Shown here one piece after another: positions 3,856-21,619 of a DNA stretch of 58,987 bases. Each line of letters starts with the position of its first letter. Position 1 is the first letter of the stretch. Origin of the DNA: an uncultured Clostridia bacterium (GTDB lineage Bacteria; Bacillota; Clostridia; Christensenellales; UBA3700); assembly GCA_947246685.1 (NCBI GenBank), contig CAMXSN010000008.1, positions 1 through 58,987 of the forward strand, given 5' to 3'. The translations under genes and the position numbers were made by a program. Under the pieces are notes generated by a model. That model searched no databases, had not been told where the DNA came from, and saw only the letters and a program-made list of their open reading frames with translations.

Positions 3856-3922
3856 GCGAAATAACTCCCAAATTGACAAAACCGTCGGGCGGAAGCGCTT
3901 GACGGCTTTAATCTACGCTTTT

Positions 3923-5167
3923 TCAATCGGCAATGATCTTGCGGCATTCGAGATAATATCTCTTATCCTCCGCATGTCCCATAGAGAATGATTTGCGCGG
4001 CAAAACTCCTCTTCTGACAACGTAATCAAACAGTCCGTCCTTCTCAAGACAAGGCATAAACACAGCAACGCCGTCGTTTTCTTTTGCTACGTTCAACAGA
4101 TGAGAATCTCCGTGAATGTAGTCGATCGTCATAGTTTTGTGAGAAGAATTATATTCGTCCATCAAATGCTGTATATCGGCGATAGCGTCGCTGGCATTGT
4201 CGGAAACAGTCCACGAATATTCTTGATTTCTGAAAACCACTTTGACCGAAGCGCTGCCGCCGAGAGCATTGAGTCTTTTTGTCATAAAATCAATAAAGTC
4301 TTCTCCTGCGCCGAGCACTACTCTGTGTATAGGCTGAAATTGCAAAGATTCGTCGTGAAGATTGACTAATTCGCAAAGCGCGTATCTTGCCGGATGCGTC
4401 TGACGCTGTTCCTCGCTCAAAGATTGCTTGATACTGTTCCAACATTCTTTTGCCGTTGCAAGAGAATGATTTCCGTCGCCTACGGCAAATAGTATCGGCT
4501 TTGACGAGCCGTATTTGGCAATAAGCGTATCGCTATCAGAAAGTCTGCTTATCTTCTCGATTATCTCGTCGCAATCGCTTATCTTGTAACCTTTGATATG
4601 TCCGCCGCCCATATTCAAATCAAAATCGTATGCGAGCGAAAAATCCGATCTTCTCTCGTAAAGGCTCTCTATGATTTCGCGACGGCTGTCGTCCATAAGC
4701 ATCATAATATGAGGCAGTTCCAAACAAGCGCCTTTGCGCACTTCAATCCTGGCGGGGAGCCTCTCCACGACAGTCTTTTCGGTAGCTTTTATCAAAGCGT
4801 CGTTGACGGACGTGTATTCGTAGTCTTCGAGATCTACGGCAATTACAAGCCCTTTTCTTGTCTGGCAGTCGGGAGTAATCCTCTCAACCAGTATAAATCC
4901 CTCGAAAGTTTCAAACAAATCGCTCTCAAGACAATCTCTCATCTTGGCATTGATCGCGTCGATCCTGTTCTGTTTGCCCTCTCTTTCCAAATATACTTCG
5001 GGGAAAATCATCTCAAGCGTCGACGGAGCATCCTTGACGATATCCGCCAGAGAGCGCCAATATTCCTCTTGCGAAGTAAATTGATCGCACGCTATAACGC
5101 TCCATTTCGTCATATCCACGTCGTGATTAGGCAATAGTATCTTAGGTACTTTAACTGTGCTTTCCAT
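3923..5167 (-). CDS. DUF1015 family protein
   Basis: 414-residue soluble protein with the DUF1015 hallmarks: IACDQFTSQEEYW near the N-terminus and the central VGDGNHSLATAKECW block (GDGNHSLAT). No catalytic function is established for this family; members are often found near serine or sugar metabolism genes. It precedes lysC on the same strand but 217 bases separate them and lysC has its own promoter, so co-transcription is uncertain. AGGA sits upstream of the ATG. No signal peptide or membrane segment. Confidence 0.85.
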   Translation of the reverse strand: MESTVKVPKILLPNHDVDMTKWSVIACDQFTSQEEYWRSLADIVKDAPSTLEMIFPEVYLEREGKQNRIDAINAKMRDCLESDLFETFEGFILVERITPDCQTRKGLVIAVDLEDYEYTSVNDALIKATEKTVVERLPARIEVRKGACLELPHIMMLMDDSRREIIESLYERRSDFSLAYDFDLNMGGGHIKGYKISDCDEIIEKISRLSDSDTLIAKYGSSKPILFAVGDGNHSLATAKECWNSIKQSLSEEQRQTHPARYALCELVNLHDESLQFQPIHRVVLGAGEDFIDFMTKRLNALGGSASVKVVFRNQEYSWTVSDNASDAIADIQHLMDEYNSSHKTMTIDYIHGDSHLLNVAKENDGVAVFMPCLEKDGLFDYVVRRGVLPRKSFSMGHAEDKRYYLECRKIIAD

Positions 5168-5253
5168 TAATATTCTTTTCCTTTAACGTAATTTATATCA
5201 GAAAAAATGTCAAACTTGCGTTTGACATCGTCTTCCTATCTATTGATCGAGCG

Positions 5254-6075
5254 TCAATTGTGTTTCTTATGCGCTTTCTTGTGATTATTTTTGCTCATAA
5301 CAGACGGCGAACTTATTCTGTATATGACCTTAATCTCTTCGAGTAATTTCTCGGGCGTCATATATCTCTTGATAGTTCCGCCTTGAACTACGCTGATAAT
5401 TCCGCTTTCTTCGCTGACTACGATTGCAAAAACGTCGCTCTCTTCAGTGATACCTATCGCCGCTCTGTGTCTCGTGCCCAGATCTTTGGCAAGCGTAACT
5501 TCCTGAGAAAGAGGAAGGAAACATCCGGCGGAGATAATTCTGTCGCCCAACACTACGACCGCTCCGTCGTGCAAAGGAGCCTTGGTATTAAATATGCTCT
5601 CCAACAATCCGCAGGAAATAGTCGCGTCAAGCGCGGTGCCGGTGTCGAGTATGTGCGCAGGAACTTCGGTTGGCGCGATAATAATCAATGCGCCGACGTC
5701 GTTCTTCGCCATATTCTGGCAGGCTTTGACGATTTCCGTAGCAGAGATAAGCAACTGTTCGTCAGTCGTGTTGTAGCCGTATTTAACTTTCTGTCGACGG
5801 GCTATCTTGCTCATAAATATTTTGAGATCCGATCGGTATACCTCGACAGTCGTTACAATCCAGAAGATATTGAAGAATCTCAGCACGTCGAGGGCGATAT
5901 ACGCAATATTTCTGAATTTTTGATTGAGAATCAACAGAGCAAGATATACAACCGAATACGCGGCGGTAAGAAGCGCCATGCGATAACTGTTTCTTCTTGC
6001 GAAGAATACGAACATTGCTATAGCAACCGCCAAAGTCATTGCGATGTCTATTATTACCCAAGCCGGTGAATCCAT
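5254..6075 (-). CDS. cdaA: Diadenylate cyclase CdaA
   Basis: Condenses two ATP into cyclic di-AMP at the cytoplasmic membrane, a signal controlling potassium, osmolytes and cell wall. Three N-terminal membrane helices (residues about 8-75) are followed by a DAC domain with the catalytic DGA (170-172) and RHR (202-204) motifs. Length 273 matches CdaA. GGAG lies eight bases before the ATG. The usual partners ybbR and glmM are not next to it; instead the upstream neighbour is the M28-like protein about 106 bases away, so the conserved cdaA-cdaR-glmM cluster is broken here. The basic C-terminal tail is rich in His and Lys. Confidence 0.93.
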   Translation of the reverse strand: MDSPAWVIIDIAMTLAVAIAMFVFFARRNSYRMALLTAAYSVVYLALLILNQKFRNIAYIALDVLRFFNIFWIVTTVEVYRSDLKIFMSKIARRQKVKYGYNTTDEQLLISATEIVKACQNMAKNDVGALIIIAPTEVPAHILDTGTALDATISCGLLESIFNTKAPLHDGAVVVLGDRIISAGCFLPLSQEVTLAKDLGTRHRAAIGITEESDVFAIVVSEESGIISVVQGGTIKRYMTPEKLLEEIKVIYRISSPSVMSKNNHKKAHKKHN

Positions 6076-6181
6076 ATCTTACTCTCCTTTTTAAGAATTT
6101 TTTATGTTCTATACTATAATATAATTTTTTTTGGCAAAAATAAAGCGTTTTTATTAATTTTAGACTACTTTTTTTGTTTTA

Positions 6182-7582
6182 TTACAAAAACGGGTCGTCT
6201 GAAGGCGGAGTTTTGTCATTATTTGAGTCCGAATTATTCTCCGAAGCAGTATTCTCCGTCGCGTTATCGGAAAAAGGCTCGACATTTTGCGGCGTATCCT
6301 CTTGTTTCGGCTTGACGTATTTATCGATATTTTTGCGCAAATAGTTCTTGATTGCCATTATCGCGCCGAACATAGCGCCTACCAAAACTATTCTCGTAAT
6401 CACGCTGACGAGATTGGCGGTCTTTGTGTTTTGCGTCCATTCGACCGTTTCTTCCGAACGAGCTTGATCCAACACCTTTGCAAAGGTCGCCGCGTTGTCT
6501 TTGTCCAAAGCGCGCATCGCGCCGCCGACAACGCTGTCGAGAGAGTTCCTTACGCCTTGCTCGCCTCTGCGCTTCAACATGTTTTCCAACGTGTCGTCGG
6601 CGGTGTGATAAACGTTGTCTTTTCCGTCTATCTCAGTGAGCACGGGATGATTGTTTACGGACCAATTCAGCGACAGATAATGCGCTGTCGGAACGCCTCT
6701 GTTCATAAAGAAATATTGATTGCCTAGCATTCCTATGTGCGAATAGTTGTAGAGCGTCTCGTCTTCCATGACAAACTGAGCGACGTTTTTATCTTTCGGT
6801 ATCGGTTTTGCGTCCGTCAAAGCGTTGAGATAACGATTGTAAGTCGTGCCGTTCTCCCGCGAATAAACATAGAGATTTTCTCCGCCGCCCAGCAAAGAGA
6901 AATTGACCATAATGGATATCCGATCCAATTCTTGCCTGTTAAGCTTAGATACGTAATGTCTGGCTCCGCTCCAATCGTAGCATCCTCCCGTAAAGAATGC
7001 GAACTTGAGGTCGTAATCGACGTCTGTGTCTTTGAGTAACTCGGCAAGCGTCAGCAACACCGCCGCGCCGCTTGCGCTTTCATAGCTTCCGTCGGCTTTC
7101 CACTTTTCGCCTTTGGCGGTCTTTTCCGAATAGAGATTATCGTATTGCGCGGAAAGTATAATCTCGCCTTTTGCATTTTGAGCTTTCTTTTGGAAAATCA
7201 CGTTGTATGCGTCGGCATCTTTCACCTCGCTGCCGTCATATCTGACAAACGCCGTCTTGAATTTTTGCAGCCCCGCTACGCCGTCGTCGTCGAACGCTCC
7301 CGAGTAGCCGTAACTTGCCATCCTTTCGCTTAGATATTTCGCGGCGACAAGTTCCCCTTCCGTAGCGACAGTCCTGTCGGCATACTCCGACGAAAGTATT
7401 TGCAGATTATCAAAAGCGGACGATCCGCTCGCGTCGTAATCTTTTTTCAACGAAGAGAAATCCTCGCCTTTTGAATCGCAGGAAACCGCGAACATAAGAA
7501 TGCATATCAAAACCGTCAGCGCCGTCGCCGCCGTCAAAACTCTTTTTATTTTGTCTGCCGTCACAGTCGTCTTAATACTCAT
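6182..7582 (-). CDS. Membrane-anchored M28-like protein with degenerate metal site
   Basis: The core follows zinc aminopeptidases of family M28, but the ligands are gone: the GAHxD His is Gln (SAQYDN, residue 146), the bridging Asp is Glu (168), the catalytic Glu-Glu pair is Gly-Cys (200-201) and the next Asp is Ser (229); only the C-terminal His (YHTADDT, 326) remains. It is therefore probably not a peptidase. An N-terminal hydrophobic segment ends in AVSC, a poor lipobox, and a second membrane helix lies near residues 390-412, followed by an acidic Asn/Ser-rich tail. The start at 7582 is set by GAGG. It is translated just after the upstream membrane protein (7-base gap), suggesting they act together. 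Function unknown. Confidence 0.75.
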   Translation of the reverse strand: MSIKTTVTADKIKRVLTAATALTVLICILMFAVSCDSKGEDFSSLKKDYDASGSSAFDNLQILSSEYADRTVATEGELVAAKYLSERMASYGYSGAFDDDGVAGLQKFKTAFVRYDGSEVKDADAYNVIFQKKAQNAKGEIILSAQYDNLYSEKTAKGEKWKADGSYESASGAAVLLTLAELLKDTDVDYDLKFAFFTGGCYDWSGARHYVSKLNRQELDRISIMVNFSLLGGGENLYVYSRENGTTYNRYLNALTDAKPIPKDKNVAQFVMEDETLYNYSHIGMLGNQYFFMNRGVPTAHYLSLNWSVNNHPVLTEIDGKDNVYHTADDTLENMLKRRGEQGVRNSLDSVVGGAMRALDKDNAATFAKVLDQARSEETVEWTQNTKTANLVSVITRIVLVGAMFGAIMAIKNYLRKNIDKYVKPKQEDTPQNVEPFSDNATENTASENNSDSNNDKTPPSDDPFL

Positions 7583-12065: not shown

Positions 12066-12152
12066 GCCGAAGTGGTGGAATTGGCAGACGCGCCGGACTC
12101 AAAATCCGGTGATGGCGACATCGTGCGGGTTCAAGTCCCGCCTTCGGCACCA
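12066..12152 (+). tRNA. tRNA-Leu (anticodon CAA), CCA encoded
   Basis: Acceptor GCCGAAG (12066-12072) pairs with CTTCGGC (12142-12148), discriminator A, encoded CCA. Anticodon stem CCGGA/TCCGG encloses loop CTCAAAA, giving CAA. A long variable arm (class II) and T-arm GCGGGTTCAAGTCCCGC complete it. Its last ~28 bases are echoed near 22020, marking it as the likely integration site of the neighbouring island. Confidence 0.95.
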
Positions 12153-12428: not shown

Positions 12429-13499
12429 TTAATAGTGAGGACGCTTTTCATTATAAAAATTTATGTACTCTCCTACTATCGCGTAGAACTCTTTCTCCGA
12501 CTTAATCTTCCTACGATACAATTCTTCTTGTTTCAATGAAGAGAAGAAGCTCTCCATAACAGAATTATCATACGGCGTATAAGGTCTTGAAAAAGACTGC
12601 GTTACTGACAATAACTTTAGATGCGCCTGGAAAGCCTTACTACAATAATTACTGCCGTTATCAGAGTGAAATGTCAAACCCGCGCTTGGTGTTCTATGCG
12701 TATAAGCCAACTTGAACGTACTCTTTGTCAATTGTGAGCTATTCTTAATCGCAATCTTATATCCGACCTCCAATCTTGAATACAAATCAATAATTACACA
12801 AATATAATAATTCTTATCGTTAACCCTAAAATCCGTTACATCACTTACCCATACTTGGTTTGGTTTCTCAGGATTAAATTGTCGTTGCAATAAGTTCCTA
12901 TTCTTTTTCTTATCTCTATCGTATAGACGCTTTGAATCTTGACGAATACTTTTAAGCCCCAAATCTCGCATTATTTCTCGCACGGTGCTATCACACACCT
13001 TAATGCCCTGAGACCTTAACACTGCCGTTATCTTTGCCGCTCCAAATATTTGATTGCTTTCGTGATAAACTTTTTGTATTTGCTCTTTCAGTTCTTCCTT
13101 CCGCCTTGCGTTAACCGTATACTCTTTCTTGTTTCTCAAAACATGATTGTATAGCGTTGCCCTTGAAACTTCCATAGTATCGCATAGAAGATGAACACTA
13201 TACTGACCATATAATTCTTCCAACGCATACAGCTTCTCTCGCAGTGGCGAATTATAATGGCAATTTGCTTTTCTTAGTATCTCTACCATCTCTTCCAACC
13301 GCTTGACTTTGTTTTGCAATTTCCTATAATTGCCTACGCTTATGTGATCCTCTTTCTCTTTCTGTTCTTCCTTGTACTGCTTTGCCCATAGATAAAGACT
13401 ACTGCGTGATATTTGCATCTCCGCTGTAATCTTTTCCACGCTTTCGCCTGAAAAATACCTTTGTACCACTAACTCTTTTTGCTCTTTTGTTGCTTTCAT
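12429..13499 (-). CDS. IS3-family transposase, single ORF, in-frame stop near C-terminus
   Basis: DDE transposase: N-terminal helix-turn-helix (residues 1-45) and leucine-zipper-like helix, HTH_21-type region, then rve integrase core with WVSDVTDF (first Asp), HSDNGSNY (second Asp) and the final Glu in NSVMESFFSSLKQEE. Unlike classical IS3 members, orfA and orfB are already one frame (356 residues). The frame stops at RPHY-TAA, while in the same frame the expected NSYKTPMQKEKEYF tail follows to a TAG at 12369; TAA sits where most relatives have Ser or Leu. The element may be inactive or tolerate the short loss. GGAGG precedes the ATG. Confidence 0.9.
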   Translation of the reverse strand: MKATKEQKELVVQRYFSGESVEKITAEMQISRSSLYLWAKQYKEEQKEKEDHISVGNYRKLQNKVKRLEEMVEILRKANCHYNSPLREKLYALEELYGQYSVHLLCDTMEVSRATLYNHVLRNKKEYTVNARRKEELKEQIQKVYHESNQIFGAAKITAVLRSQGIKVCDSTVREIMRDLGLKSIRQDSKRLYDRDKKKNRNLLQRQFNPEKPNQVWVSDVTDFRVNDKNYYICVIIDLYSRLEVGYKIAIKNSSQLTKSTFKLAYTHRTPSAGLTFHSDNGSNYCSKAFQAHLKLLSVTQSFSRPYTPYDNSVMESFFSSLKQEELYRRKIKSEKEFYAIVGEYINFYNEKRPHY

Positions 13500-13582: not shown

Positions 13583-15625
13583 TTATTCATCTTTAATAAA
13601 GTACTTATCAATCTCGTTCTCAACATACGTTCTCCAATATGTTAGTACATTTTGATCCATATAATCAAAGATAGTTTTGCCTTCTAATGCCAACTGAACT
13701 TTATCTGGAATAGCAACTTCCATTAATTTAGGAACTATTTGCTTTCCCGCCACTATTCTATTCCTATTTAAATGATCTATTAATCTATTTAGAGTTTTAA
13801 CTATGTTATTATATTTCTCTTGACTCATCTCAACATCATGTTTTGTTTTAATGTTTAAACATGCTTCGCTCTTGCCATTAGTTAAGAAAGTTGGTATATC
13901 TTCATAATTTAGAGCCAAAATCTTATACTCGCCTACTGCCCTAGTGGCCCAAGCCGCACCTCCCTCAAATAAACAAAACTGACTTTCATTAAAATTTTTT
14001 GAAGGCATAAAAAGAATATCATTATTTTTGCGTAAGATATAGCTTTTTATTAGAGAGGATAAAGGCTCTAAATTTTCTGTATCTAGTCCGCTTGAAGAAT
14101 AAAATATTTCACATGAATCAGATGACAAATCCCCGTTAAAACCGCAGCTCTTTAAATAATAGTATATGAAATCAGAAAAAATATGATCCTTACTTGAGTG
14201 TGATATAAAAATAGTATATTCTGCTTTTGTTTCTAGATTTACATCTCCCTCCAATTTTGTTATAACAAACTGCGTTATTCTATTTCTATCTTTATCGCTC
14301 AAGTTAGTCATGGACTCTAATTCTTTTTCTATATCGCCTTTAAAAATAGTTTTAGATTTACTTGATATTTTTACATCCTCATTCTTTTTATGTTTGTTAA
14401 TCTCATCTGCCAAGTGTTGTCTTCTATTAACAAGATAATTGCCAATTTTCGCAACGATATCTTTCAAAAGAATGAACCTAGGGTCTTGCGTATCAAAGTC
14501 TTGTCTACCCGCAGTAGCAATGTCTGGCAAATCATCGTCATCCAAAATATTAAAAGAAATCTCTCCTTCTAAATAATTTGCAAATGCACGAGTGATGCCC
14601 AAGTGCTCTATTATATTTGCTAATGCCAACTTATTTCGCACATAAAGCCTAATTTGATTAGGATTATAAAATCTATTCTTGATATAATTACCGTCATTCT
14701 TTTTTGCTATATCAGAATCTATTGAAGAATGTATTCCTATCCACCCCTTAACGCAATAATCCTTTTTTAGTCCCCAAAATTCTTGCGTGCCTGAAATACT
14801 AAATTCTTCACTACATAAATCAATAATATTAGTAACTCCAGTATACTCCTTTTCTTCATCAGTTTTAGTTTTATAAGGCAAACTGAATTCATTTTGAGTT
14901 AAATTACTTAAAGTATCAGTATCTGTAGTGCAAATACAAGCCATATTCTTAAACGCAATGTGTTTCTCAATTTTCTTATAATTTTCCTCAAGATCATCGT
15001 CTTTCTTAATAATTTTGATATAAATATTTTGAGACATTTGATCATATAAGAAGAAGTTAGATAATTTTTCCTCTATTGATTCCATCGCTCTATCTCCTAA
15101 TCGAGACATATCAACATTTGAAAGACTGACTACTGTACCATGTTTTTCAGTTTCTAGAGCTTTTCCAAACACACTTTCTTCTGTTTGAAAATCTATTTCC
15201 ACTAATTGCGGTGTATCATCATCATCTAAGTTCGAGACATCTAATTCCCAAGCAGTAGCGCAATTCTCTAATTTTTTAGAATAGATTCTAAAACTATTCG
15301 ACAAATATAAAGCCGCGAGTTTACCGATTCCTTTTCGCCCCATTGCATTACCATCTTTCATGTCCTCTTCATGTTTTCTCTTATTGTAACCTATCACTAT
15401 GTAGCGTTCTTTTACATCAGTTTCATCCATTCCCTTACCATCATCATAAATCTCCACATATGACTTTTCTTTATCTCGCATATCAATGGTAATAAATACA
15501 TTATTTGCCTTTGCATCTAAACCATTAGCAACCAATTCTGAAATAGCCGAACCCACATTAGAATATAATTGCTTTCCAAACATTTTAAGCGCTGAATATG
15601 TCAGCGAAAACGAAACTTTATCCAT
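13583..15625 (-). CDS. GHKL (HSP90/MORC-type) ATPase fused to a TIR domain
   Basis: 680 residues. The N-terminal ATPase has all Bergerat-fold motifs: N-box ELVANGLDA (30-38), DDGKGMDETD (61-70) and the G2 loop GRKGIGKLA (96-104). A long middle region (about 150-460) follows, then a TIR domain from about 469: EYTIFISHSSKD, and SQFCLFEGGAAWA with Glu554 at the position of the catalytic Glu of NAD-cleaving TIR enzymes. The arrangement suggests an ATP-dependent sensor with an NADase effector. It follows dcm by 10 bases in one transcript with vsr, where a restriction nuclease would usually be. MutL/MORC-like ATPases near dcm-vsr are known; a TIR fused here is what I find unusual. Function inferred. 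Confidence 0.85.
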   Translation of the reverse strand: MDKVSFSLTYSALKMFGKQLYSNVGSAISELVANGLDAKANNVFITIDMRDKEKSYVEIYDDGKGMDETDVKERYIVIGYNKRKHEEDMKDGNAMGRKGIGKLAALYLSNSFRIYSKKLENCATAWELDVSNLDDDDTPQLVEIDFQTEESVFGKALETEKHGTVVSLSNVDMSRLGDRAMESIEEKLSNFFLYDQMSQNIYIKIIKKDDDLEENYKKIEKHIAFKNMACICTTDTDTLSNLTQNEFSLPYKTKTDEEKEYTGVTNIIDLCSEEFSISGTQEFWGLKKDYCVKGWIGIHSSIDSDIAKKNDGNYIKNRFYNPNQIRLYVRNKLALANIIEHLGITRAFANYLEGEISFNILDDDDLPDIATAGRQDFDTQDPRFILLKDIVAKIGNYLVNRRQHLADEINKHKKNEDVKISSKSKTIFKGDIEKELESMTNLSDKDRNRITQFVITKLEGDVNLETKAEYTIFISHSSKDHIFSDFIYYYLKSCGFNGDLSSDSCEIFYSSSGLDTENLEPLSSLIKSYILRKNNDILFMPSKNFNESQFCLFEGGAAWATRAVGEYKILALNYEDIPTFLTNGKSEACLNIKTKHDVEMSQEKYNNIVKTLNRLIDHLNRNRIVAGKQIVPKLMEVAIPDKVQLALEGKTIFDYMDQNVLTYWRTYVENEIDKYFIKDE

Positions 15626-15635
15626 TCTTCCTCCA

Positions 15636-16628
15636 TCATACTATCTCTTTGATAATATTTCTAATTATATATTGAACTACATCAACAACAATACTATTGC
15701 CAAATTGCTTATAATTTTTTTCTTGTGTGTCAGCTAATCTGAATGAATCCGGGAAACCCATTAATCGAGCGCATTCTCTGGGATAGAGTTTTCTAACTCG
15801 ATTTTTTATTAAATACATTCCGGTTTTACCGCCTAGTCCTCCTCCACAAGAGGATAAGGTCGTTGATTGACCATTAATTGAATAAATTCTCTCACCTTGT
15901 CGACCTAAATATATTTGTCCAATTCGACTTAACTTATTTAATCCATTGACAGGTTCATCTTGATTAATTACATAATCTCTTGAAATCCAATAATTCCCTT
16001 TAATTTCGTTCTTATCATCTTCTATTAAAATATCTTTCAATGTTTTGTAACTGGTCAAACTTGATGGAAAAGAAAAATCCTTGATATTTAAATCATTTTT
16101 AAATGCGACAATATAAATCCTTTTTCGTGCTTGTGGCACACCATAATCTGTTGCGCAAAGCACTTCCGAAAATACCTTATATCCAATATTTTCTAATTCT
16201 TCATACACAGTTGTTAATGTTCTTCCATTATCATGATTAGCAAAATTTCTGACATTCTCTAATATGATTATCTTCGGCTTATGATATTTAGCAATTCTAA
16301 CAACTTCAAAAAACAATTTTCCTCGACCTCGAGAATCTTTAAAGCCCTCTTTTTGTCCCGAAATACTAAATGGTTGACACGGAAATCCTGCGCATATTAT
16401 ATCATGTTGTGGAATGGTTTCAACTGGAATTTGAGTAATATCTCCTTCAGGAGTCATATTAAAATTTTCTTCATAAACTTTACATGCTTCTTGATTAATA
16501 TCCGAAGCAAAAACGCATTGACCGCCAAAAGATGATACTGCCAAATGAAAGCCGCCAATTCCACAAAATAAATCTATGAACTTATAATCTTTCAGAGCAT
16601 TCTTCTCATGCTCTTTCATCTCAATCAT
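15636..16628 (-). CDS. dcm: DNA (cytosine-5-)-methyltransferase
   Basis: Methylates C5 of cytosine in a specific site using SAM. Ordered motifs: FIDLFCGIGGFHLA (I, residues 18-30), PCQPFSISG (IV, catalytic Cys84), ENVRNF (VI, Glu124), QARKRIYIVAF (VIII, QxRxR) and the C-terminal FGNSIVVDVV (X). Length 330 is typical for a solitary or type II enzyme; the variable target-recognition region between VIII and IX is short. GAGG precedes ATG. It is co-oriented with vsr upstream and the GHKL-TIR gene 10 bases downstream. Target sequence cannot be read from the protein; Vsr next door predicts repair of T:G mismatches at the methylated site. Confidence 0.95.
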   Translation of the reverse strand: MIEMKEHEKNALKDYKFIDLFCGIGGFHLAVSSFGGQCVFASDINQEACKVYEENFNMTPEGDITQIPVETIPQHDIICAGFPCQPFSISGQKEGFKDSRGRGKLFFEVVRIAKYHKPKIIILENVRNFANHDNGRTLTTVYEELENIGYKVFSEVLCATDYGVPQARKRIYIVAFKNDLNIKDFSFPSSLTSYKTLKDILIEDDKNEIKGNYWISRDYVINQDEPVNGLNKLSRIGQIYLGRQGERIYSINGQSTTLSSCGGGLGGKTGMYLIKNRVRKLYPRECARLMGFPDSFRLADTQEKNYKQFGNSIVVDVVQYIIRNIIKEIV

Positions 16629-16749
16629 AACGCCTCTTTTGTTATAATAAACACTTATAGTGCTTTAAGTATAAACTAAAATACTAATATTATCAACTAT
16701 ATAATATCAATACTTTAATAAATGTTTGCCCTCTAGTTCATTCTTACAT

Positions 16750-17157
16750 CTACAACAATAACTGTAATTTCGAGACTGCCTTCTCTTTCCTTTTATTTGT
16801 TAATTCACATTCCCAAATTCTAATTACTGTCCAACCTTGAGACTCAAACTTTTCATTAATTTGAGTATCACGTAGCTTGTTTCTTTTGCGTTTGTTTTCC
16901 CAATAATCCAGATTATCTGCAGGAGTAACGTTTCTGCAATCATGGCCATGCCAAAAACAGCCGTCTACAAATATAGCTATTTTCTTTCCTAAAAATACGA
17001 AGTCGGGTTTGCCTTCAACTTTATAATTTCTTCGCCAACCTTTTATATCTAGTTCTTTAAACAATTTAATAAGCCTTAACTCCGTTGACTTATTGTTTTG
17101 GCTTCTTACTGAACTCATTATTTCAGAACGTTTTTTCTTATCAAAAATATCACTCAT
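16750..17157 (-). CDS. vsr: Very short patch repair endonuclease
   Basis: Nicks 5' of the T in T:G mismatches formed when 5-methylcytosine deaminates. The start SDIFDKKKRSEIMSSVRSQNNKSTELRL is the Vsr hallmark; PDFVFLGKKIAIFVDGCFWHGHDC (residues about 51-74) carries the catalytic Asp and zinc ligand residues, and the C-terminal WTVIRIWECEL is conserved. At 135 residues it is complete. It leads the vsr-dcm-GHKL/TIR transcript, with a promoter at 17172-17200; 121 bases separate it from dcm, in which another promoter may lie. Confidence 0.95.
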   Translation of the reverse strand: MSDIFDKKKRSEIMSSVRSQNNKSTELRLIKLFKELDIKGWRRNYKVEGKPDFVFLGKKIAIFVDGCFWHGHDCRNVTPADNLDYWENKRKRNKLRDTQINEKFESQGWTVIRIWECELTNKRKEKAVSKLQLLL

Positions 17158-17171
17158 ACTCTTTCATTAAT

Positions 17172-17200
17172 ATTTTAAACTAATCTTATTAAAAACGCAA
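17172..17200 (-). promoter_or_regulatory. Promoter of vsr
   Basis: On minus: TTGCGT (17195-17200), 17 bases, TAAAAT (17172-17177). Confidence 0.5.
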
Positions 17201-17224
17201 CATTTCAAAATTGATTTAATATTT

Positions 17225-17307
17225 GAGTTCAAGTCCCGACTTCGGCTATACGAGTGGGGTTCGAGTCCCGACTTCTGGTATGCCCCAAAAAAATCCTTTT
17301 TGTTCAT
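17225..17307 (+). repeat. 83-nt direct repeat, copy 1: two tRNA T-arm fragments plus tail
   Basis: Begins GAGTTCAAGTCCCGACTTCGG, contains a second T-arm-like GGTTCGAGTCCCGACTTCTGG 33 bases later, and ends in TCCTTTTTGTTCAT. Copy 2 at 21808-21890 differs at only four positions. The two copies flank the coiled-coil/R-M module. The T-arm fragments resemble the tRNA-Leu 3' end but no complete tRNA is present. Confidence 0.85.
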
Positions 17308-17547
17308 GAATCACACCCAGACACACGCAAAAGGAGCGTATCGAATTTAAAACTCCAAAGCGTGTGTTTTTCATATTTCAAGCACTTTGGAGAACAAAAT
17401 CCTTTTTGTTCATTCGACTATCCCCTGCAACAATGCTTTTTCACTACTCCATTAAAAGCCCATTGCCATTGTACAAAAAGGATTTTTCGTGGCTTCTCAT
17501 TATACGATAAGGATTTTTTCGCCTTGCGATTGAATAAAAAGGATTTT
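17287..17547. repeat. Cluster of five AAAATCCTTTTTGT-type motifs
   Basis: Direct copies at 17290-17307 and 17397-17414 and inverted copies at 17473-17487, 17507-17519 and 17533-17547; another direct copy ends the repeat at 21890. The whole 17158-17666 interval contains no believable gene: the only long frame there is made of these repeats. Two inverted GCGTGTGT/ACACACGC segments also lie at about 17327-17371. Confidence 0.6.
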
Positions 17548-17666
17548 CAACCTCTACAACTCGTCTACCCTATTCTAAATTATATTGAGAACCTTTCGTG
17601 GTATAAACTACCCATGACAATTGATTTTTAATAAAAGATATGTTATATTTATTTTATGGAGGAAAT

Positions 17667-18710
17667 ATGAATAAAAGAAATCTTATTTTCAGTATTAGCA
17701 CAACTATTTTATTATTTATTATTGCTTTATTGCTTGGAATTTTTACTTTCAAAAATGGATTTAATATAAGTGAAATGAAAGCAAGTAATTTATTTTCTTT
17801 CTTAGGTGGGATGCTTGGAACTCTTGTATCTATTGCTGGATCTTTTGTTGTTTTGTTGATAACAATAAAAAAGAATAACGAACATCAAGTAAAGTTAATA
17901 AACGAACAAAACTCGATTCAAGTAGAAAATAATTTGCAACAACGATACAATAAAGAAAGAGAAAACTTTAATAATGCTTATAATTCAATTGAGCAGTTAT
18001 TAATTACCTCTAAAACATATATGGTAGACGAATCATCTACAACATATATTAACGTAATAGATAGATTGAATCTAGTTTACACTGAATACAGAAAATGTAT
18101 AAACTCTGTTTTGATAACAACAAATGTATATACCCTACAAGAAAAATGTGTTGGCTGCACTTTGTGTGACATTAAAAGCTATGGTGAGCTATCAAGAGTA
18201 TTAAAGGATATTCAGTCTATAATAAAAGAAATTGAACATAGTACGTCCGAAATAAATCTAAAACAAAATATTTTATTTGACATTGCATTTAAGAATAAAC
18301 AGCTAGTAGATAATAAAGAACTATTAGTACGCAAAATAAGTGGCTATAAAAAAGAACAAAAAGAGTATCCAAAAACTTCTAAAGATTTTATAGACCTAGA
18401 AAAAGAAGTGTCCAATATGAATCAACAACTTATTAATACTGATAATAATATCTGCGCTAATCTTAGAAGTATGAAAGATGAAAATAAAAATTTATTTATC
18501 CTAATTAATAATTTGGAAACAATGAAATTAAACTTTTTTAACAAAATAAAAGAATATTTTGAAATAGTCAAATTTCATATAAGTGAACAAGTACAATTTG
18601 TAAAAAATAATGGCAGAACTTCATCTACAAAGTGTAGGAAATATGAATTAGAAACATCTAACTCCATAATAAAAAAGCCGAATCAAAATAATAAAAAATC
18701 TTTATTTTGA
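17667..18710 (+). CDS. Two-TM coiled-coil protein, possible abortive-infection type
   Basis: 347 residues from the ATG at 17667, chosen for the GGAGG six bases upstream. Two N-terminal membrane helices (about residues 7-25 and 40-65, with FLGGMLGTLVSIAGSFVVLL between) are followed by a long, Lys/Glu/Asn-rich coiled-coil region and a CVGCTLC cysteine cluster mid-protein. The twin-helix plus GG-containing loop resembles putative phage abortive-infection (PutAbiC-like) membrane proteins, but this is only pattern similarity. It is the sole plus-strand gene of the island, convergent with the R-M pair and enclosed with it by the 83-nt repeat, so it may be part of that system. Confidence 0.6.
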   Translation: MNKRNLIFSISTTILLFIIALLLGIFTFKNGFNISEMKASNLFSFLGGMLGTLVSIAGSFVVLLITIKKNNEHQVKLINEQNSIQVENNLQQRYNKERENFNNAYNSIEQLLITSKTYMVDESSTTYINVIDRLNLVYTEYRKCINSVLITTNVYTLQEKCVGCTLCDIKSYGELSRVLKDIQSIIKEIEHSTSEINLKQNILFDIAFKNKQLVDNKELLVRKISGYKKEQKEYPKTSKDFIDLEKEVSNMNQQLINTDNNICANLRSMKDENKNLFILINNLETMKLNFFNKIKEYFEIVKFHISEQVQFVKNNGRTSSTKCRKYELETSNSIIKKPNQNNKKSLF

Positions 18711-18810: not shown

Positions 18811-19776
18811 CTATATTAAATCAGAAAACCCAATAGATTTCATAGTTTCATTTATGTATTTAAAGTCTATTTTGCCATCTATAGTAGGAACATAAATCTC
18901 CATTTCAGAAAGCCTTTCATCATTTATTTTGCGTCCATAATTAAATCTAAAAATATGTTTTTCTATCAATACTTTGAAAAATAAACCTTCAAAACTATTT
19001 AACTCTTTTTCTTTAAATTTCAAAACTATTACATCAGTTGTTGTAACAATTGGATATTCATGATAGAAACAAACCCCAACAGACCCATTTTTAGCCAAAG
19101 TTAAACAATATGGCGGATAAATTGTTGTCTCCATTCCAACTAATGATATCTTTTTCTTAACTCCATTATTAAATCGGCCAGAGGAAACAAATCCTATATT
19201 GCCAATATCACACTTTTTAGCTTCTTCTTCCGAGATATGACCTCCACGTAAAACATCAAAAAGACCTAATAGCTTTTTCTTTTGCCTTTCAACACAATGT
19301 GGCATTCCAATGGAATTATTTTTTGTTTTAGCACTAATACTATAATCCTTTCTTACATATTCAGGCAACTCACATATTTCCGGAAGCAAAATGTCGCCCA
19401 AAGTTGAATTTGCTTCTCTTCCAAAAGCAGAATATCTAAATTGATTTTTCCGAATCGCCAATGCATAATAAATACGCTCGTTAAGTGTCATTTTCGAATC
19501 AATGGGCGTCAATATTGCGACATTTTGACCATTATAATATTTAGAGAATTGAACATTAGCTGTCAACCTTCCCTCACCGCCTAATGGAACAGAAATAGTT
19601 AGCGGATCATTAGGTATAATTCCTACTTGCTCATTACAAATCAAATCTATTCCATGATTTTTAGATGTGCGAGAAACAAAAATTATTGGCTCTTCTTTTC
19701 TTTCAATAGTTTTATTTTTATCAAGCTTCGTTCCATATGTTATATTAAATATTTTACTAAGCTTCTTCATCTTCAT
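18811..19776 (-). CDS. R-M specificity subunit (HsdS/BcgIB-like)
   Basis: DNA-recognition subunit of the adjacent nuclease-methylase. 321 residues arranged as two half-repeats, each a target-recognition domain followed by a helical spacer: the first ends near GDILLPEICELPEYVRK, the second carries GRFNNGVKKK...YCLTLAKNGSVGVCFYHEYPIVTTTDV and ends in SEMEIYVPTIDGKIDF. Length matches BcgI-type B subunits (about 340) rather than type I HsdS (about 400+). It overlaps the methylase gene by 20 bases; ATG at 19770 has better spacing from GAGG and is an alternative start. Confidence 0.85.
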   Translation of the reverse strand: MKMKKLSKIFNITYGTKLDKNKTIERKEEPIIFVSRTSKNHGIDLICNEQVGIIPNDPLTISVPLGGEGRLTANVQFSKYYNGQNVAILTPIDSKMTLNERIYYALAIRKNQFRYSAFGREANSTLGDILLPEICELPEYVRKDYSISAKTKNNSIGMPHCVERQKKKLLGLFDVLRGGHISEEEAKKCDIGNIGFVSSGRFNNGVKKKISLVGMETTIYPPYCLTLAKNGSVGVCFYHEYPIVTTTDVIVLKFKEKELNSFEGLFFKVLIEKHIFRFNYGRKINDERLSEMEIYVPTIDGKIDFKYINETMKSIGFSDLI

Positions 19777-21619
19777 TATCCTCGCTATTAGTTAATTTCG
19801 TGTCATATAAAGCTTTATACACAAAATATTCCTCAACTGCCTTTTGAAAATCAGATTCAGTTATCTCATCATAATTAGGTTGCAAGTATGCTTCGGAACA
19901 CCATTCATCATTATACTTGATACTCCGTTTTATACTAAATCCTGGAATTTCACTAAAATCTCTAAATGCATTGACCCATTTAGTTTTAATCTCTTCCCAT
20001 TTTTTATTACGATCTATACGCCCAGAATTTCTTGAAACAATGAAACCATCATCTCTACAATAAGCAAACCAAGACTTAACATTGCAATCATGAGGCCTAT
20101 GTGCTCTAAAAATTACTATACATGTTACAGTGCCTACTGGGTAAAATAATGTTGTAGGCATACTCATCACGCCAAGCAATGTATGTTCCTCTAATATTTT
20201 CTTTCTCTTTAATGTTTCTTTTGTCTGCACAGAACAAACACAATTTATAGGAATAATTGCTATCCCTAATCCACCTGGTTCAAGAAGATTAAGCATATTA
20301 TAAACAAAATCTAACTCACTTCCACCATCATCAGTCTGACTATAAGGAGGATTCATAAATGCAACTGTAGGTCTGTGTACATTTTTTATTTTTTCAATTA
20401 TGTTAGCATCAAAACAACTACAATTATACAGATTAGATTTTCCATCACCTCTGATTATCATATTAGCAGCAGCCAGAGTAAACATCTTTGATTCACTCTC
20501 AACACCAATTAACTGATTACGCCTAATGTTTTTTTGAATAGATGGATCATCTGTTTTCTTAAGCATAAAATTCATAGCACTTATTAAAAAACCTCCTGTA
20601 CCACAACAAGGATCAACAACTCTATCTGAAATTGATAGATTTGCTAATTCGCAAAATAAATTCGTTATGTGATTTGGAGTTAACACTATGCCTAAGCCTT
20701 TTTTGTTACCATCTGTATAAGATAAAAATTCTTTATAGAATTCGCCTATATAATCAAATGAATGTTCTATATTTATATACGGCCAAATTTCCTCTTTTAC
20801 TTTATTTATTATGAACAAAAAATCTGTATCGGTACGATTATTATTATTTAGTTTATTAATGCTCAACAAACTTCGAAAATTAGTCATCATTATACTTACT
20901 TTATCTTTAGGCATACCTTCTATTGAATCTAATTTATTCTCGATAGAGGTCAACAATAAATTTAATAAAGATTTCGGCGTTGTTTGAGTTTTATAACTAT
21001 TTAAAAAACTTTCCTCTGATAATGCAAGAAGTATAGCACTAATTATTATAGGCTTAAGTTCATCTGTGATTTTAATCTTTTCACGCAAAACTTTATGAAT
21101 TACTTTCGTATTCTTTTTGATGTTTTTTATATCATACTCTTTCTTCTCATTTGTAGCACGAATTATTTTTAAATATTCCTCTTTTGAACATAACCTATTT
21201 AAATTTAAACTAACTGGACTAAATGCACCTTTTATCCACATATAATTACTAATTGTTAAAGTATCAATACTTTCCCCACTTATACCTATGGATATCACAT
21301 GATACTCTTTAGATAAGTACTTTCCATATAATAATGCACCATCCACAGCATATTCAGCATATTTATTCTTATTGATACTTTCGTGAAACCTCGTTGAAGC
21401 CTTGCATTCGATGACCATTAATATATCAGTATTTTGAAATTGTATTATATATTCTGGTTTTCCACAGCCAGAGCCACTTTTGCTTGCCTTTTTTAGACAG
21501 TCTTTAATTATTGGATTATCGCTAATTTGTTCCTCTATTACTATATTTTTTTCATCATAGTAACCTAACCTTTTTAACATATCCCTTGTTAAAATCTCAG
21601 TTTTCCTCTCGTTAGCCAT
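19757..21619 (-). CDS. Type IIB/IIG-like nuclease-N6-adenine methyltransferase fusion
   Basis: Single protein (620 residues) that should both cut and methylate DNA. N-terminal PD-(D/E)xK nuclease-like motif: PEYII (55-59) and IECKAS (70-75). A helical linker leads to the gamma-type N6 methyltransferase with GIVLTPNHI, motif I DPCCGTGGF (336-344) and motif IV NPPYS (423-427). With a separate specificity subunit, no HsdR and no helicase, the architecture and sizes match BcgI A/B, a type IIB enzyme that cuts on both sides of its site. Transcribed first of the pair; AGGA precedes its ATG. Low GC and flanking repeats indicate transfer. Confidence 0.85.
   Translation of the reverse strand: MANERKTEILTRDMLKRLGYYDEKNIVIEEQISDNPIIKDCLKKASKSGSGCGKPEYIIQFQNTDILMVIECKASTRFHESINKNKYAEYAVDGALLYGKYLSKEYHVISIGISGESIDTLTISNYMWIKGAFSPVSLNLNRLCSKEEYLKIIRATNEKKEYDIKNIKKNTKVIHKVLREKIKITDELKPIIISAILLALSEESFLNSYKTQTTPKSLLNLLLTSIENKLDSIEGMPKDKVSIMMTNFRSLLSINKLNNNNRTDTDFLFIINKVKEEIWPYINIEHSFDYIGEFYKEFLSYTDGNKKGLGIVLTPNHITNLFCELANLSISDRVVDPCCGTGGFLISAMNFMLKKTDDPSIQKNIRRNQLIGVESESKMFTLAAANMIIRGDGKSNLYNCSCFDANIIEKIKNVHRPTVAFMNPPYSQTDDGGSELDFVYNMLNLLEPGGLGIAIIPINCVCSVQTKETLKRKKILEEHTLLGVMSMPTTLFYPVGTVTCIVIFRAHRPHDCNVKSWFAYCRDDGFIVSRNSGRIDRNKKWEEIKTKWVNAFRDFSEIPGFSIKRSIKYNDEWCSEAYLQPNYDEITESDFQKAVEEYFVYKALYDTKLTNSEDNEDEEA

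Follow-up and report, generated by a model that had tools for sequence, protein, structure and literature searches.

The vsr-dcm-GHKL-TIR operon

The window, a stretch of 58,987 nucleotides of contig CAMXSN010000008.1 from an uncultured Clostridia bacterium (GenBank assembly GCA_947246685.1), carries three genes on the minus strand: vsr for a mismatch endonuclease, dcm for a C5-cytosine DNA methyltransferase, and a gene for a 680-residue fusion protein composed of a GHKL ATPase, an S5 domain, and a C-terminal TIR domain (Table 1). The intergenic gaps are 121 bp between vsr and dcm and 10 bp between dcm and the GHKL-TIR gene, and the GC content per kb is 0.26–0.36 across the 12–22 kb stretch versus about 0.42–0.46 at 2–12 kb, which confirms the tight operon on an AT-rich island described in an earlier note made from the sequence alone; the numbering of Glu554 and Asp61 given there is also correct. 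The dcm gene provides the cognate methyltransferase of a classical type II restriction-modification (R-M) system (Pfam), and its likeness to M.HhaI suggests a GCGC-like recognition site. A cognate restriction endonuclease was not found with Pfam, PADLOC, and NCBIfam: the effector had no match to any nuclease domain, and Vsr, a mismatch nickase, was the sole nuclease. The fusion was wrongly taken for undescribed in the earlier note, since the GHKL-S5-TIR architecture is a known family, paraMORC4, whose 2008 description, in the part available, reports a GHKL domain, S5, and a C-terminal TIR with the Hx[ST]xD motif, encoded in R-M neighbourhoods together with DNA methylases and Vsr (Iyer, Abhiman, and Aravind; PMC2292703).

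The GHKL domain was recognized as HATPase_c_3 (Pfam, 75.9 bits). Its Bergerat-fold motifs are intact, as had been proposed: residues E30, N34, D61, G63, G65, G96, G99, G101, K102, and T164 are invariant in all 14 aligned sequences, which represent 14 of the 19 distinct GHKL-TIR loci described below (L004, L012, L013, L097, and L148 were left out). The ATPase modules of MORC3, MORC2, and MutL align with residues 7–408 of the AlphaFold2 model, with GHKL followed by S5; the ATPase-module matches listed for the model reach from residue 7 to 411. The NCBIfam profile NF050001 (BbrUII/HgiDII family restriction enzyme) matches residues 6–417 alone, scoring 194.5 bits where the cut-off is 550, and the related protein of locus L005, with an N-terminal half of the same kind and a different C-terminal end, scores 724.5 bits; kinship of the ATPase half with a restriction-enzyme family is thereby supported. 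Because L005 shares the N-terminal half and differs at the end, the nuclease position in the BbrUII/HgiDII family corresponds to the TIR position in the window protein. R.HgiDII and BbrUII cut DNA, as the family name also implies. Three nuclease-type proteins keep D...E-L-K residues in the alignment of their ends, which by eye read as a PD-(D/E)xK nuclease. The available part of PMC5867850 gives GTCGAC as the site methylated by M.HgiDII.

Since the full-length model listed matches to ATPase modules, the TIR domain was modelled separately, and structure prediction of this domain alone found a TIR fold. The Pfam match was below threshold (16.2 bits, cut-off 28), and the PADLOC profile spbK matched the domain with an E-value of 1.1e-9. 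The Hx[ST]xD motif is present as H476-S-S478-K-D480. E554, invariant in the 14 sequences, aligns with E192 of SpbK, the position of the catalytic glutamate in alpha-C, and of the alpha-C interface residues of SpbK, G194 and W197 are retained as G556 and W559 and N191 is F553. The closest solved relative is an enzyme consuming nicotinamide adenine dinucleotide (NAD), and the evidence points to a predicted NADase-type TIR, in agreement with the glutamate at the NADase position noticed earlier.

Two other functions of this domain were considered. The published suggestion of 2008, nuclease activity or ligand binding (PMC2292703, available part), appears improbable for the window protein. The TIR does sit at the nuclease position of the sister family and SpbK N191 is not conserved, but the nearest solved structure is that of an NADase and E192, G194, and W197 are all retained. 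Moreover, this proposal is older than the discovery of TIR NADases, for which one paper cites a 2018 reference. It would equally surprise us if the TIR, instead of depleting NAD itself, acted like ThsB of Thoeris and produced a cyclic ADP-ribose variant as a signal to a further effector: ThsB profiles matched, weakly (E 0.0048 for the window protein and 1.6e-6 for L036), but the spbK profile outscored every ThsB profile in all eight proteins scored, and the six island proteins scanned included no SIR2, SLOG, or similar partner.

Table 1. Features of the operon and of its insertion site, with window coordinates
Feature	Position	Strand	Basis or remark
GHKL-S5-TIR fusion protein, 680 aa	13583..15625	-	Open reading frame, Pfam HATPase_c_3, NF050001 match to N-half, AlphaFold2 model
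GHKL ATPase and S5 module	14393..15625	-	Residues about 1–411
Long linker helix, ATPase to TIR	14312..14482	-	Residues 382–438; DSSP on AlphaFold2 model
SpbK-type TIR domain	13826..14224	-	Residues 468–600
Glu554 codon of GHKL-TIR gene	13964-13966	-	
dcm, C5-cytosine DNA methyltransferase, M.HhaI-like, 330 aa	15636..16628	-	Pfam; PDB M.HhaI 345.8 bits
vsr mismatch endonuclease, 135 aa, accessory	16750..17157	-	TIGR00632
tRNA-Leu(caa), insertion hotspot	12066..12152	+	3' end repeated at module borders
Repeat with two tRNA-Leu 3'-end-like copies, distal border of dcm/GHKL-TIR module	17212..17315	.	Repeat search
IS3-type transposase adjoining effector gene, same module, outside system	12429..13499	-	Pfam rve and HTH_21; IS3 name is a reading

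Recurrence with dcm and exchange of effectors

A collection of genomes of 84,980 species was scanned with the TIR domain as the only seed, and the best 80 of 118 confirmed loci were analysed. These comprised 14 GHKL-TIR loci, 65 other TIR loci, among which L043 (a TIR piece with no ATPase part) was counted, and one locus without a TIR open reading frame by annotation (L099). Of the 14 GHKL-TIR loci, 11 had a dcm gene within 1.5 kb, versus 0 of 65 others (Fisher 4e-11, an optimistic value because some rows are related, for example L033/L034 and L036/L037); within 5 kb the counts were 11/14 versus 1/65. The figures for vsr were 1/14 versus 0/65 within 1.5 kb (p 0.18) and 2/14 within 5 kb (p 0.03). 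Combining these rows with loci from full-length searches and the window, and merging the duplicates L033/L034 and L003/L036, gave 19 distinct GHKL-TIR loci, 16 of them with dcm within 1.5 kb (15 of 18 when the window is set aside). At least four (the window, L012, L020, and L035) had an intact vsr within this distance, several loci being short-flanked. Of the recurrence with dcm and vsr predicted in the earlier note, the dcm part thus stood and the vsr part did so weakly; vsr as a fixed partner is not supported. Nuclease-type relatives had dcm within 1.5 kb in 17 of 21 deduplicated rows. The genome of L084 has no match to PF00145; the contig of this locus, however, stops 162 bp beyond the GHKL-TIR gene, and in its relatives L013 and L097, dcm lies 19 and 24 bp downstream of this gene. 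A vsr fragment occurs just upstream of the GHKL-TIR gene of L084 (6136–6297), and an open reading frame of L038 (1–1245) combines a Vsr/DUF559-like piece with a cytosine methyltransferase, upstream of more dcm genes and the GHKL-TIR gene.

The fusion is rare and patchy. NF050001 matched at E <1e-30 in 7 of 398 genomes of the phylum, the window's included, and among 17 genomes of the same genus only that of the window encoded a GHKL-TIR fusion. Two of the 50,697 records in a phage collection had a match to the window protein at E 1e-5: H31, which is of nuclease type, and an unannotated one. The TIR-seeded scan of viral contigs yielded no GHKL-TIR. L020 (L119 is the same contig) was the only TIR form found on a viral contig; the broken L022 was left unclassed. 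Between its portal genes and its replication genes, coliphage PhiR44_1 (L154, 3001–6049) encodes a nuclease-type ParaMORC3 and Dcm.

Effectors have changed places behind related methyltransferases. The dcm products of the TIR-type loci L004 and L012 share 67% and 65% identity, respectively, with that of the nuclease-type L125, whereas the ATPase halves are 30–34% identical and the C-terminal ends unrelated. A tree of 32 partner dcm required four effector changes, at least three of them forced by supported branches. Related methyltransferases behind both TIR and nuclease effectors suggest that the effectors share a task behind one mark. In the first ATPase tree, from which near-copies and partial rows were left out, the long-branch nuclease row L006 fell among the TIR rows; in the second, with L006, L015, and L016 removed as long branches and L023 and L024 added, the TIR forms grouped on one side with support of 71/97, which is not strong. 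The ATPase trees thus do not show that the TIR form arose more than once. The viral contig L024 carries a tight operon (3905–7090) of dcm, a GHKL-HEPN/Ymh gene (PF09509, 57.3 bits, cut-off 25), and vsr, and by its domain content adds a third effector to this type of chassis. It is quite possible, though we stop short of calling it probable, that one MORC-like DNA-surveillance ATPase and one cytosine mark serve interchangeable killers, namely a nuclease, an NAD-destroying TIR, and a HEPN RNase; the TIR form would then connect a methylation-based reading of self and non-self directly to cell suicide.

These exchanges also bear on a repair role: very short patch repair by Vsr together with the MutL-like ATPase, the TIR being structural. 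Such a role is very improbable: intact vsr lies within 1.5 kb in only four of the 19 loci (several short-flanked), yet the TIR glutamate is invariant, and nuclease and HEPN forms take the place of the TIR.

Candidate mode of action

On balance, we lean towards an R-M-derived, methylation-guarded abortive defence: surveillance would fall to the ATPase, the part also found in restriction enzymes, and killing to the SpbK-type TIR. Dcm would methylate host DNA at a short site, possibly HhaI-like, and Vsr, where present, would repair T:G mismatches arising from deamination of 5-methylcytosine. A dimer of the MORC/MutL-like ATPase could clamp DNA, and incoming DNA without the mark would induce a conformational change or gathering of the ATPase, relayed by the long helix to the C-terminal TIR domains. 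The latter would assemble head to tail and consume NAD at a composite active site that includes Glu554, which would bring the infected cell to a stop; we infer phage defence from this sequence of steps. If the TIR form works in this way, a methylation check would lead to NAD loss and cell arrest, joining classical R-M, usually taught as cutting the invader, with abortive infection. The TIR and nuclease versions with 65–67% identical methyltransferases provide an experimental handle.

Several observations weigh against this reading. D480 is kept in only 11 of the 14 aligned sequences, and SpbK N191, also needed for activity, corresponds to Phe553. No DNA-recognition domain was identified in the GHKL-TIR protein, and site reading would be missing from the TIR form if HgiDII performs it with the nuclease half. 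The vsr link is weak. The methyltransferases of the window, L032, and L033 are M.HhaI-like (54–58% identity to that of the window), while those in the rest of the window's ATPase clade share 28–35% with it; between the window and L035 the ATPase is 43% identical and dcm 30%. The presence of several dcm families in one ATPase clade speaks against inheritance of one recognition site and would mean that specificity changed often or that the ATPase does not read the site. Finally, no dcm was present in the 16 kb examined at either of the actinobacterial loci L040 and L042, and the sole PF00145 match of L042, 14 kb off, is of another type (29% identity to that of L041). The single PF00145 match in the L040 genome is on another contig, beside a vsr, and a dcm linked at a distance was rejected for this reason; the protein shares 57% identity with the dcm that accompanies L041, which is sister to L040, and 24–29% with five other partners.

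The mixture of dcm families and the failure to find a DNA-reading domain would suit a guard, a rather unlikely but serious alternative in which the ATPase-TIR protein, with the same NADase activity, senses another infection event and Dcm is its partner or ward. PrrC with EcoprrI provides a precedent. The trigger might, with the same reservation, be a phage protein, hemimethylation, DNA ends, or a block of either Dcm or an adjoining R-M system. The window contains another R-M module close by (18811–21619), and SpbK is triggered by a phage portal protein, according to the available part of its description (PMC12847820). On the other side, the N-terminal half is common to a family of named restriction enzymes, dcm is linked in 16 of the 19 loci, and a related dcm is kept in the L040 genome although unlinked. 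For the methylation-guarded defence, which had been proposed in outline in the earlier note, the support is partial: dcm recurrence, the NADase-type TIR, the ATPase motifs, and the kinship with restriction enzymes favour it, and the partnership with Vsr came out weak.

Genomic slot and known relatives

The 3' end of tRNA-Leu(caa) (12129–12148) is repeated at 17227, 17259, 21810, 21842, and 22018. These repeats bound two modules, one with the transposase, GHKL-TIR, dcm, and vsr genes and another with a type IIG restriction-methyltransferase and a specificity subunit (PADLOC REase_MTase_IIG, E 1.2e-111), which is presumably BcgI-like. No tyrosine or serine site-specific recombinase was detected by Pfam among seven island proteins scanned. 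Three of eight same-genus regions carry window-like R-M genes beside the same PPase and tRNA-Leu. At this slot G791 has vsr, two dcm, an AAA_5 ATPase read as McrB-like, and an LlaJI restriction enzyme; its Vsr protein is 92% identical to that of the window, and the DNA is 88% identical over 16734 to 17488. G790 has two dcm and an NgoFVII restriction enzyme, and G788 a type IIG-like pair (tblastn); in the remaining five regions tblastn found no gene like those of the window island. Since G791 and G790 hold dcm together with a restriction enzyme, the TIR protein occupies that place in the window, and the genus may use tRNA-Leu as a slot for R-M cassettes. A 356-aa open reading frame on the opposite strand (17640–18710) shows by eye a membrane start and a coiled coil; its best Pfam match had E 0.29, and PADLOC and NCBIfam gave none. 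Two more cytosine methyltransferase genes lie close together elsewhere in the same genome (G000, contig C4, 61096–64161).

Among known systems, Thoeris shares the use of a TIR domain in defence but differs in that no ThsA was present among the six island proteins scanned (PADLOC, NCBIfam). SpbK of Bacillus subtilis ICEBs1 shares the TIR with conserved E192, G194, and W197, whereas its N-terminal domain senses the phage portal protein, and a methyltransferase partner is not mentioned for it in the available part of the source (PMC12847820). The Shedu protein VcSduA, which contains GHKL, is a proven phage restrictor requiring both ATPase and nuclease residues; it likewise has a C-terminal effector controlled by a GHKL ATPase, but this effector is a nuclease, and dcm is not mentioned for it in the text available (PMC12137116). 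GHKL-HEPN/Ymh fusions, a paraMORC type reported in 2013 (PMC3710099, available part), are similar in the GHKL fusion and R-M neighbourhood, L024 being flanked by dcm and vsr, and differ in having HEPN, a putative RNase, instead of TIR. The BbrUII/HgiDII family (NF050001) resembles the window protein in the N-terminal 400 residues and in the neighbouring dcm and sometimes vsr, with a nuclease C-terminal end in place of TIR, as reflected in the score below the cut-off; its nuclease-type relative in phage PhiR44_1 is annotated as ParaMORC3.

The closest likeness is to paraMORC4. A literature search, which left most subscription papers and all bioRxiv preprints outside, found no experimental study of a GHKL-TIR fusion. 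The window protein has each tested feature of the family, namely the GHKL motifs, S5, a TIR with Hx[ST]xD, and the methylase and Vsr neighbourhood, with no tested difference in architecture from the available part of its description. The evidence for the window TIR favours an NADase, in contrast to the nuclease or ligand binding considered in 2008 (PMC2292703), and this offers a testable function for a family left open since then.
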